Assembly (NCBI GenBank): GCA_000151295.1
Contig: GG745328.1
Coordinates: 1,053,585-1,117,584 of the forward strand
Reading direction: 5' to 3'
DNA from: Allomyces macrogynus ATCC 38327
Taxonomy: Eukaryota > Blastocladiomycota > Blastocladiomycetes > Blastocladiales > Blastocladiaceae
Length of the DNA: 64,000 nucleotides
This document shows, one piece after another, positions 3,695-10,452 of the stretch. Position numbers and translations under genes: made by a program. Below the pieces are notes generated by a model. That model was not told the DNA's origin and searched no databases. It was given only the letters and a program-made list of their open reading frames with translations. Every line of letters starts with the position of its first letter. The stretch's first letter is position 1.

Positions 3695-4179
3695 GGCTTG
3701 CCTTGACTTGGTCAGAAATGGATGGCGGTCGCTGCTGGCTTGGCTCAGCACGCAATGGGCTCGAAAAGGACGCGAATTGGTGCGCCGCCAGGTGGAGAGT
3801 GTAGTGCGGCAAGTCGGGCGTGCTCGGAGCAGGTTGGTTGAGAGCTGAGATTGTCGACGTGACGCTGAGCGCAATGTCAAAGGCTGGAGACGGCAAAGAG
3901 TTGACGATGGTGATGCGGTGGGGCGGTGGGTGCGGTGAGGCAGCACTGCGTGATGTTCCTGCCATAGCCATCGAATGGAATGTTACTGCACTCTCTTTTC
4001 CAAGCAGCACCCATCAGAGATACTTGCTAGACCGCGCCCAAGTTGCTCAATTTATTTGCACGGCTCGAGTTTTGTCTGGCGCAAGACCCGCTCATTCGAG
4101 CCCAGTGGCAGGAGTACCAAGGGCCACAACGAAAATAGACTCCATTTTGTCCTCTGCACACCACCAAGAATAATTGACC
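3695..4179. other. Divergent intergenic region
   Basis: Shared 5' region of the leftward coiled-coil gene and the rightward IMPACT gene. No gene or clear motif seen. Confidence 0.5.
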
Positions 4180-5334
4180 ATGGACGACGACCTCGGCCTC
4201 GACAGCCCGCTCCTGTCGGGCGACGCCCGCGACGAAATCGAAGCGCTAGCTGCCATTTACGCGCCGCACTTTGTTCGCGCACCTCACGCAACCGCCAGCT
4301 CCGACCTGGCCTACCTGATCACCGTGCCCATGCCCGACTCGTGGCCCGCGCATCTGCACCCGCGCCTACGTCTGACGTTCCCGGGCGCGTACCCGCTCCA
4401 CGCGCCCGTCGCTGTCCATTTTGACGCGTGTCCGCTTTGGTCCGGCGACATGCGCTCGCACGCGACCAGCGAGCTGGCAACGATGTGGGCTGCGACGAAT
4501 GGCGGGTGTGCGGCGCTGGACGAGGGAGGGATCGTGTTTGCGCGCGCGGGAAAGGGGAGTGCTGGGTTGCATCCGAACTGTCATCACGGGATTGTGTTGT
4601 TTGATTGGATTGAGTGGCTGCGCGAGTATGTTGCCAGCGAGCTCGGGCCCATGGTTGACGCGATGCTGGCCGCACAGCAAAATTCGGCAGCGAGTGACGA
4701 TGTTGCTTCTGCGGCCAAGGCCGAAGCCATGGCGCGTGTCGTTGAAAAGGTGGCCGAAACTGGGAGGCCCGACTTGCCCGACCTGACCGTCGCGCCAACG
4801 CCCACCATTGGCCGGCTCTACTCGCATTCTGACCCCATCATCGGTTCGTACCAGACCTCCTCCACCCTGTCCACCTTGTCTCTCATCAAGCTGACGGCCC
4901 ACTCTCTCACTTTACCAGACCGCAAATCTGTTTTCCTTGCGCACTCGGCCTACATTTCGTCCCCCACCGACCCGGCTGCGCTTACAGCTTATCTAACCTC
5001 GCACCGGCGCATTGCGCGCGCAACGCACAACATCACCGCCTACCGGCTCGAGATGCCCAACGGAATCATGCACCAGGACTGCGACGACGATGGCGAAGAC
5101 GCCGCGGGCAAGCGTTTGTTACACCTGCTGCAACTCGTCGGCGCGCGCAACGTGTGGGTTTGCGTGACGCGGTGGTACGGCGGGATCCAGCTGGGGCCCG
5201 ACCGATTCGCGCACATCAATAACGCGGCACGCGCGGCGCTGGTGTCAATGGGAGTCGTGGAGGGCGCCGAGACGAGCCAGGAGGCGAGGAGGAAGGCGGC
5301 GGCAGCGGCAGCGGCGGGTGGCGGTCGTAGGTGA
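4180..5334 (+). CDS. YIH1: IMPACT/Yih1 homologue (RWD plus UPF0029 domains)
   Basis: Single exon, 384 residues, starting at the ATG at 4180. In this family an N-terminal RWD domain binds Gcn1 and so restrains activation of the eIF2-alpha kinase Gcn2 in the cytosol. Residues about 15-130 look like RWD: DEIEALAAIYAPHF, then LRLTFPGAYPLHAPVAVHF. After a helical linker, residues about 225-365 form the IMPACT/UPF0029 domain: KSVFLAHSAYISSPTDPAAL, then TAYRLEMPNG, DCDDDGEDAAGKRLLHLLQL, VWVCVTRWYGGIQLGPDRF and HINNAARAAL. The DGE-AG-R-L and RWYGG-LGP-RF motifs are diagnostic. Length is somewhat above the yeast protein (258), owing to the linker and an Ala-rich C-terminal tail. No intron was needed. 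Confidence 0.9.
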   Translation: MDDDLGLDSPLLSGDARDEIEALAAIYAPHFVRAPHATASSDLAYLITVPMPDSWPAHLHPRLRLTFPGAYPLHAPVAVHFDACPLWSGDMRSHATSELATMWAATNGGCAALDEGGIVFARAGKGSAGLHPNCHHGIVLFDWIEWLREYVASELGPMVDAMLAAQQNSAASDDVASAAKAEAMARVVEKVAETGRPDLPDLTVAPTPTIGRLYSHSDPIIGSYQTSSTLSTLSLIKLTAHSLTLPDRKSVFLAHSAYISSPTDPAALTAYLTSHRRIARATHNITAYRLEMPNGIMHQDCDDDGEDAAGKRLLHLLQLVGARNVWVCVTRWYGGIQLGPDRFAHINNAARAALVSMGVVEGAETSQEARRKAAAAAAAGGGRR

Positions 5335-7495: not shown

Positions 7496-9587
7496 ATGGC
7501 TACTCTCTCCGCCTCGACCTGCACGGACGTGCCCTTGCAGCCGAGCCCCAAGTCGACGCTGCGCGGCCAGACGCCCGCCGTTCGCCGGCTCATGTGGGAC
7601 TGGAAGGAGTTGCGGGCCGACCCGCTCGATCACGTCGTGGCCGCGCCGCTCGAGGACAACATGCTCGAGTGGCACGTGAACCTGATTGGTCCCGCCGAAC
7701 TCAGCAAGATGTGCCCAGAAGTCGAAATGGCCCAGTCCGTTTGGCACATGGTGATCCGGTTCTCCGATTTCTACCCGGCGCGCCCACCGTCGGTTGTGCT
7801 GTGCACGTCGATCCCGGGCCACCTCAACGTGCTCGGCGCTCGCCCGCGCGACGGGCTGTTCCCGGTTTGCATGGACATGCTCGAGACGGGTACGTCGAGA
7901 TGCTTTGCTCCTCTCTGGCGGATGTGCCGTCTCATTGGTGCCGTCTCATTGGTGCCGTCTCATTGGTGCCGTGAAGCTGACGCGGTCCCTCTTCCCGACC
8001 GCTCACAGGCAACCTCAAGCAAACGTCGACGCACCAGTACACGGGCTGGAGCTCGGCCTACACGGTGCGCTCGATTCTCATGCAGCTGCAGGCGCTGCTC
8101 TGGCACCGGGACATGTACAAGCGCGCAACGTACAAGCAGCTCGGCGCGGCCGTGGAAAAGACGCGCCAGTTTCGGTGCGACTCGTGCGGGCATGCCCGCA
8201 AGACGCCCTTCCCGCCGCTGCCTTTGAAGAAGATGCCGCCCAAGTCCGAGGAACAGGAAGCGGCGACGACGCGAGCTGTCATGCTTGACATGCCGCGGCA
8301 CGTTTTCGACCAGCTCGGCCACCTGCGCAGGATATTGCGCGAAAACGACGCGGCGTTTCGGCAGCCCAAGTCCGTGGCCAAGCTCGACGTGGCGTGGGCG
8401 GCGGCGGTCGCAAAGCAGGACAAGGTGCCCGCTGTGCAGCAGCACCCGCTTGTCGCGCAGGCCAAGCAGCGGGTAGAGGAGACCAAAGCGGCCGTGATGA
8501 GCCACGGCCAAGGCACGCTGAAGCCCTCCGCCCCAGCCTCGCGCGACGCTGGTGCTCTCGGCGGGCTCCCGATCGAGCTGCTGCTGCAGGTTCTCGGCCA
8601 CGCGACACTGTCCATGAACGATATTTTCCGCGCTGCCGGCACGTGCCGGTACTTGCACTGGGCGTGCCAAGCTGCCGACGTTTGGCGTGGCCTCGTGCGC
8701 AAGCAGTCGGGGCTCGCTGGGCTCGCGCGCGGTTGGCGGTACCTCTACATGGCCGAGCACAACCAAGCGGTGCGCGACCTGCGGTGCTGGTACACGCGCG
8801 TGTCGTTTGCCGACGACGTGCTGGGTCTGCCCGTCGAGATCACCGTCAACCCGCGCACCAAGCAGGTCGATTACGCGATGCCGACCATGGCGTTCCTGTC
8901 GCGTACGGCCTACTACAACTTGCATGTGCGCGTCACGCCCGGCGATAAGCGCACCTTCACGCACTGGCTCCCGCTTTACTTGAGCGAGGCGCACTTTGAC
9001 CGCGCGCTCGCCGATGTGCAGCGGTTTGTTGCTGCACTCGCCCAGCCGGGCACGGCGAGCCCCGTGTTTGACCCGAGCACGATCAACGTCGTGTTCCCCA
9101 AGCTACTCAACACGTGCGCCGTGCTCTTGGCCGACCGCAGCCTGCACGCGTCCGACACGGCGATTGAGCTCTACACGCAGCTGCACCGCGTGTGGGTCGC
9201 GTGCCTGCACCGGCACCCAGCGCAGCAGGCGAATGTCGAGCACCGGCTCGCGCGGTTCATGAGCGGCGAGGTGCACCGCACCAAGACCGCGGTCCCGTCG
9301 CTCGGCGACTTGCTCGCGCTGCTCTCGGTGAGCGAGCAGTACGGGTGGGCGCAGCTCGCACAGCCCTTGCTCGAAGAAGTCATGCACCGCAGCGTGCTGT
9401 GGATCGGCAAGTCGAACCCGGCGCTGATCAAGAAGTGGCAAGACGACGACCGTGTCGCGCAGGCACCCGACCGCGAGCTGCTGGCAGCCGCGTTTGAGGC
9501 CACGGCCGTGTCGCGGCGGCTGGTTGCGTTCCACGTGCTGTTCCTCGACGAGCACCGCGGGCGACAACAGGCGGGTGCCACGAGTCA

Positions 9588-9622
<35 letters not shown>

Positions 9623-10452
9623 AGACAGTCGCTGAAATGGCGCTGACGGCCGACGTGCTGTACGGCAAGCTGCCGATGCGTGTGACGGCGCGCATCCAGG
9701 AGGGTATTCGCGCGATTCTCAACGAGACGCCGCACTGGGGCGCCTGGTTCCAGCGACTGCGCGTCTCGGTGCTCTCGCAGCTCGCCACGACACGGTGGAT
9801 ACACGGCGCCGTGGCCGCGTCGCTGCGCAAGGGGTACCACACGCGGCACACGGTGTTTTCCAAGATCCAGTCTCGCGGCGTGTCCAAGATTCTGCTGCGC
9901 GGCGAGTCCTACTCGGTGGCACCGACGGCGCGCAAGATTGCCGTCGAGGAGACGTGGAGCTCGGCAACGGGCCTGTTTCTCGACGCGTCGGTGCTGCTGC
10001 TCGACGGCGCGGGCAACACGCGCGAACACGTCACGTACTGCCACCGCAAGTCGCAGAACGGGTCGGTCGAGCACTCGGGCGACACGTTTGTGCGCGACCG
10101 CAACGAGGGCGTGCACAAGATGACGATTGACCTCGACAAGGTGCCCAAGAGCGTCATGCACTTGGCATTCTTCATGTCGGCGTGGGCCGGGGCCTCGCTC
10201 AAGGACATTGACGCGCCATATATTCGCATGACCGACGGCGCGCAGGAGCTGTGCACGTATACGTTTTCCGAGTCGGCGGTCGGCGAGCACAAGTCGGTGC
10301 TCATGGCGGTGCTGTCGCGGGAGGTGGGCAAGGGCGGTGCACGGAGCAAGTGGGTCATGCACGCGACGGGCGTGCATGGCAATGGGGACGTGTCGAGTGA
10401 TCGGCCGATGCGCGATACGGCGCGGCAGTGTGTGAAAAACGGACAGCAGTAG
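7496..10452 (+). CDS. E2 (UBC) - F-box - TerD fusion protein
   Basis: Two exons, 7496-7889 and 8009-10452, phase 1, intron 119 nt (donor GTACGT, acceptor CTCACAG); 945 residues. Residues about 30-165 resemble a ubiquitin-conjugating fold: MVIRFSDFYPARPPSVV, then GHLNVL where E2s have HPN, then DGLFPVCMDMLE with Cys125 in the place of the catalytic cysteine, then TGWSSAYTVRSILMQLQALL. Residues 318-362 form an F-box (LPIELLLQVLGHATLSMNDI, then TCRYLHWACQAADVWRGLVR). The centre holds an unassigned region (FTHWLPLYLSEAHFDRAL) and an 11-proline run at 659-669. Residues about 755-925 are TerD-like: GLFLDASVLLLDGAGN, NGSVEHSGD, IDLDKVPKSVMHLAFFMSAW, KWVMHATGVHGNG. E2s transfer ubiquitin, F-boxes bind Skp1, and TerD proteins act in bacterial tellurite/stress systems. 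The Cys is present but the changed HPN makes E2 activity uncertain. Domain calls are by eye. Confidence 0.75.
7926..7967. repeat. Intronic tandem repeat, 3 perfect copies of 14 bp
   Basis: The unit GCCGTCTCATTGGT is repeated at 7926, 7940 and 7954, wholly inside the intron of the fusion gene. Confidence 0.9.

Follow-up and report, generated by a model that had tools for sequence, protein, structure and literature searches.

What is a ubiquitin-conjugating enzyme (E2) doing in the same chain as an F-box and a bacterial-type TerD domain? The question is raised by a gene of Allomyces macrogynus ATCC 38327, at positions 7,496 to 10,452 of a 64,000-nucleotide stretch of contig GG745328.1 (assembly GCA_000151295.1, forward strand, 1,053,585 to 1,117,584; the window, below, is this whole stretch). 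A first-pass annotation, made from the sequence alone, had proposed one protein joining these three domains. I find all three in one chain and, between F-box and TerD, a module predicted to share the hemiRING-UZI fold of the UBR4 ubiquitin ligase (E3). The gene product may be a single-chain ubiquitin writer made of an E2, a UBR4-like E3 module, an F-box and a TerD domain, a reading to which I give roughly an even chance.

One gene, three named domains

Once positions 7496-7889 and 8009-10452 are joined, 945 codons stay open to the stop, and a frame of 823 codons runs without interruption from the E2 through the end of TerD. The annotation had placed the 7889/8009 boundary correctly, and the intron it encloses is GT..AG in a joined open frame. 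It had also recognised the domains correctly: the Pfam profiles UQ_con, F-box-like and TerD all match the joined protein above their cut-offs (Table 1). TerD scores 54.8 bits against a cut-off of 25.3 and has the TerD fold in the predicted structure; the F-box profile is barely above its cut-off (26.1 versus 24.3 bits) and matches several relatives more strongly (7e-12 in Zopfochytrium). Along the protein, HLN starts at residue 109, FPVCMDMLE (122-130) holds Cys125, LPIELLLQVLG of the F-box starts at 318, and the TerD part has DASVLLLDGAGN at 790, NGSVEHSGD at 815 and IDLDKVP at 838. Within the intron, at window 7920-7970, a 14-base unit, GTGCCGTCTCATTG, stands in three repeats.

The gene has other copies in the genome: contig C57 carries two (88% identity over exon 2), C71 a single one (67%) and C69 another (54%). 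The C57 copy matches AMAG_19444 across the same junction, on both sides, with a different intron sequence, and the C71 copy matches AMAG_04797; the gene in the window is thus a duplicate that has diverged. When it is compared with the C57 copy, with one codon at the exon split entered by hand and wrong by construction, the ratio of nonsynonymous to synonymous divergence (dN/dS) over the whole protein is 0.22. The E2 (0.11) and the middle region (0.14) have the lowest values, followed by the F-box (0.29), TerD (0.37) and the linker (0.42). These low ratios argue that the protein is under selection. The one-gene model stands because database proteins share the layout, the duplicate shares the junction and selection has acted between the two copies; a split between F-box and TerD is ruled out by the open frame, the same-layout relatives and the conserved junction.

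Relative to the C57 copy, the TerD part (window 9901-10329) has a synonymous divergence of 0.10 and the other parts 0.26-0.34, a hint of gene conversion of the TerD part. The two C57 loci (L006 and L007, near 932-935 kb and 980-983 kb) lie on opposite strands about 45 kb apart and share an identical 3,847-base block, explained either by inverted duplication in the recent past or by the assembly. The C69 locus (L009, near 497-500 kb, 54% identical) has stop codons in three of its matched stretches, six in the first case and a single one in each of the remaining two, and is probably a decayed gene.

Relatives and origin

At least 40 relatives were found in a set of 5.8 billion proteins, a lower bound obtained by scoring about 8000 candidates that shared most words in each search. 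By precomputed Pfam domains, E2, F-box and TerD occur together in 21 of the 40, across several fungal lineages. The named genera are, among the blastoclads, Allomyces and Blastocladiella; among the chytrids, Zopfochytrium, Chytriomyces, Siphonaria, Obelidium, Podochytrium, Entophlyctis and Physocladia; and among the Orbiliomycetes, Drechslerella and Orbilia. The same layout, for which the annotation had pointed to other zoosporic fungi, is present in blastoclads and chytrids and extends to Orbiliomycetes. The green algae Apatococcus and Tetradesmus have the E2, the middle module and a TerD-like end; Pfam calls an F-box above cut-off in neither, and in Tetradesmus it does not call TerD.

A tree of the middle domain (27 rows: the window and 26 of the 40 relatives; deeper branching order without resolution) recovers blastoclads (5 rows), chytrids (8), Orbiliomycetes (3), green algae (2) and a type with S1 domains (2) each as one supported group. 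The annotation's suggestion of a recent gain by domain transfer does not survive, since the layout is common to blastoclads, chytrids and Orbiliomycetes, each one well-supported group. Recent bacterial transfer of the whole layout is likewise ruled out by middle-domain groups that follow taxonomy. Judged from the sequences, the layout reads as old and patchily kept, and an old transfer of TerD is possible.

No viral relatives were confirmed in scans of viral contigs with two and one short peptide patterns, and no prokaryotic relatives of the TerD part in a scan that covered two patterns. None of the six proteins given to the PADLOC defence library matched. The profile of the MXAN_6230/SCO0854 family RING domain proteins (NCBIfam NF041916), a family named for its RING domain, matches the TerD part of relative P0020 with E 1.6e-4, far under the family cut-off (20 versus 600 bits).

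The E2 domain

Profile and predicted fold both place the N-terminal domain among E2s (UBC). The E2 of this gene is nearest Rad6: the top 16 PDB sequences are of the Rad6 class (47 to 36 bits), and the next E2 scores 32.5. With the family E2 profile, Rad6 comes out narrowly ahead (66.7 versus 64.9 bits for UBE2D2), UBE2D1 ranks first by sequence for the Blastocladiella E2, and ranking by structure leaves the E2 classes nearly tied. By sequence, I assign the Rad6 subclass to this gene only, not to the whole family. Of five UBE2A residues important for UBR4, Arg7, Arg8 and Ser97 have counterparts here; Arg11 is replaced by Trp and Arg95 by Gly.

Of the 34 relatives whose sequence covers the site, 33 have the active Cys, 31 by regular expression and two (P0003, P0031) by eye; in three of the 33 (P0010, P0028, P0031) it sits in a shifted W-x-C and was assigned from how far it lies from the W-S motif. 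The site is skipped in the gene model of P0034, and P0030, P0032, P0033, P0036, P0038 and P0040 (6 of the 40) are without that region. The annotation had noted that HPN is changed to HLN and that activity might be altered. The change is real; the worry is lessened by relatives that keep HPN or vary its Pro. Allomyces proteins have HLN or HFN, Blastocladiella has HPN, chytrids show HPN or HSN, and Orbiliomycetes show HEN. The Asn is lost in P0011 and P0035 (HPH).

A middle module with an E3-like fold

The extra domain that the annotation had guessed at FTHWLPLYLSEAHFDRAL exists and belongs to a stretch of about 350 residues that is conserved across the family. Its predicted structure has the hemiRING-UZI fold, and AMAG_19444 gives the same. 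Because of this predicted UBR4-type E3 fold, the annotation's idea of a ubiquitin-transfer module gains strength. The full-chain prediction (predicted template modelling score, pTM, 0.54) is one from which no E2-E3 arrangement can be derived.

Sequence and zinc site give another picture. Cys391 was matched in 39 of the 40 relatives, all but the partial P0038. Over the module's first 125 residues in the 27-row alignment, it and His460 are the sole invariant Cys or His. The C-x-x-C half of the UBR4 C2HC zinc site (Cys4838, Cys4841, His4887, Cys4890) is found in none of 39. No UBR4 chain appears among PDB matches at E up to 10, a Pfam scan of seven proteins found no PF13764 (the UBR4 family), Ubr1 of the same genome, as a single sequence, shows no similarity to the middle profile by hhalign, and a Pfam scan of the joined protein found no UBR box. 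With the zinc half-site absent, I do not class the module as a member of the UBR4-type hemiRING-UZI E3s. Weak PDB sequence matches of the region (dynamin, polyproline) were taken as chance. A CCG run at window 9589-9622 gives 11 prolines in a loop of the module and is shorter or absent in five aligned relatives.

Exchangeable slots around the module

What flanks the module varies. Four of the 40 relatives (P0011, P0012, P0035, P0039) have S1 domains between E2 and module, with neither F-box nor TerD called by Pfam; P0037 has an S4 domain, plus a VWA domain directly after the module. In P0029 and P0034, from two chytrid genera, a VWA_4 domain is flanked on both sides by TerD sequence; TerD and VWA are both Ter-system domains. 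P0036, from a metagenome, has another C-terminal domain (about residues 470-611) at the usual TerD place; it contains a DLDLHV motif, and no named Pfam domain matches it above cut-off. P0036, P0037 and P0039 are predicted gene models from short contigs. An acidic loop of TerD domains has a role in calcium binding. The bacterial TerD proteins (3ibz, 2kxt) differ in having this loop, where FVRDRNEG stands here, and in that TerD is here fused to ubiquitin-type domains.

Table 1. Features of the gene in window coordinates
Feature	Position	Strand	Remarks
Exon 1	7496..7889	+	N-terminus and first part of E2 (UBC); open frame, donor GT at 7890
E2 (UBC) domain	7586..8109	+	residues 31-165 (UQ_con, 4.9e-11), split by intron; Rad6-like by sequence in this gene
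HLN replacing E2 HPN motif	7820..7828	+	Asn kept, Pro not
Catalytic Cys125 codon	7868..7870	+	aligns with Cys of UBE2B
Intron	7890..8008	+	GT..AG, 119 nt; about six codons past catalytic Cys codon
Exon 2	8009..10452	+	E2 remainder, linker, F-box, E3-like module, TerD, stop codon
C-x2-C-x-H motif	8176..8193	+	residues 188-193, after E2; C-x2-C kept in most fungal rows
F-box-like domain	8563..8700	+	residues 317-362 (Pfam, 7.2e-6)
E3-like module, hemiRING-UZI fold of UBR4	8770..9816	+	residues 386-734, predicted fold
Invariant Cys391 codon	8785..8787	+	near UBR4 zinc ligand Cys4838, a placement by aligned range rather than by single residues
TerD domain	9901..10329	+	residues 763-905 (1.1e-14)

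A neighbouring open frame (window 4174-5334, plus strand) has RWD and UPF0029 domains by Pfam, as YIH1/IMPACT proteins do.

Proposed mechanism and its rivals

The computed domains, predicted folds, conservation and spread of the layout suggest how such a protein might work. E1 would charge Cys125 of the Rad6-like N-terminal E2, and the tethered UBR4-like module, probably zinc-free, would hold or activate the E2~ubiquitin within the same chain. The F-box may anchor the protein to Skp1, perhaps with a cullin, and the C-terminal TerD could be an exchangeable sensor or target-binding end that controls the timing or the choice of target for ubiquitination, plausibly as part of a response to stress.

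A different division of labour would have the F-box dock the fused E2 on Skp1-Cul1, as in a Skp1-Cul1-F-box (SCF) ligase, with Rbx1 activating it, TerD binding the substrate and the middle a scaffold without E3 function. Most fungal members scanned do have an F-box-like domain above cut-off, the hemiRING C-x-x-C is absent, and in most members the stretch from the active Cys to the W-S motif is longer than in Rad6 by an insert of about 7-17 residues, where Cdc34-type E2s have an acidic loop. However, the middle module stays in the four S1 relatives with no F-box called and in the two green-algal proteins without one above cut-off, and its dN/dS is low, which leaves SCF delivery rather doubtful.

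The whole chain might instead be a non-catalytic platform, E2-like and E3-like, that binds for example ubiquitin or a Ter-like ligand and transfers nothing. The near-universal catalytic Cys and the E2 dN/dS speak against this, and the E2-like UEV proteins lose that Cys; I consider such a platform improbable, even with the Pro of HPN lost in Allomyces and the zinc half-site absent. Finally, it is scarcely credible that the gene model is an artefact, that two genes were fused by chance or that bacterial TerD was gained horizontally in recent times: only the patchy distribution was found in favour of this, whereas the three Pfam domains recur together in several fungal lineages, the frame is uninterrupted from E2 to TerD, the junction is conserved and the tree groups follow taxonomy.

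Comparison with known systems

Yeast Ubr1 combines a zinc RING with N-degron domains. Its E2, Ubc2/Rad6, is a separate protein (7mex, 7mey), whereas the proposed single-chain writer carries its own. The UBR4 E3 module (8b5w, 8btl; PMC10873205) differs likewise from a protein with the E2 in the same chain, besides the zinc, sequence and UBR-box differences given above; its UZI part was presented in 2024 as a novel fold. UBE2O and BIRC6, set beside the family by their description in PMC11354881, resemble it as E2s within large chains with ligase-like capacity, and PMC12635394 terms UBE2O a hybrid E2/E3. I know of no F-box or TerD in UBE2O or BIRC6.

Significance

The annotation knew of no described protein with this architecture. 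That holds for the literature, where a search that did not reach earlier Ter-system work (Anantharaman 2012) found no paper on TerD with ubiquitin-conjugating and F-box domains; it does not hold for databases, where the 21 proteins with all three domains are named only hypothetical or ubiquitin-conjugating enzyme. The accessible part of PMC7159879 proposes TerD as a binder of nucleotide derivatives and does not mention the E2/F-box/TerD architecture. Tentatively, with somewhat less than an even chance of being right, I propose a eukaryotic family, old and so far undescribed, of ubiquitin writers in one chain: an E2 with its own zinc-free UBR-type E3 module, a middle slot for F-box, S1 or S4 and a terminal slot for a Ter-system trigger, TerD or VWA. 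Such a protein would be a bacterial-type stress or alarm-metabolite sensor wired directly to ubiquitin transfer.

E2s and E3s ordinarily meet only transiently. If the proposal is true, this natural E2-E3 fusion would offer a ready-made model in which to study the activation of Rad6-type E2s by UBR-type ligases, the UBR4 module would have relatives beyond UBR ligases, and the poorly understood bacterial Ter domains would be linked to the eukaryotic ubiquitin system.
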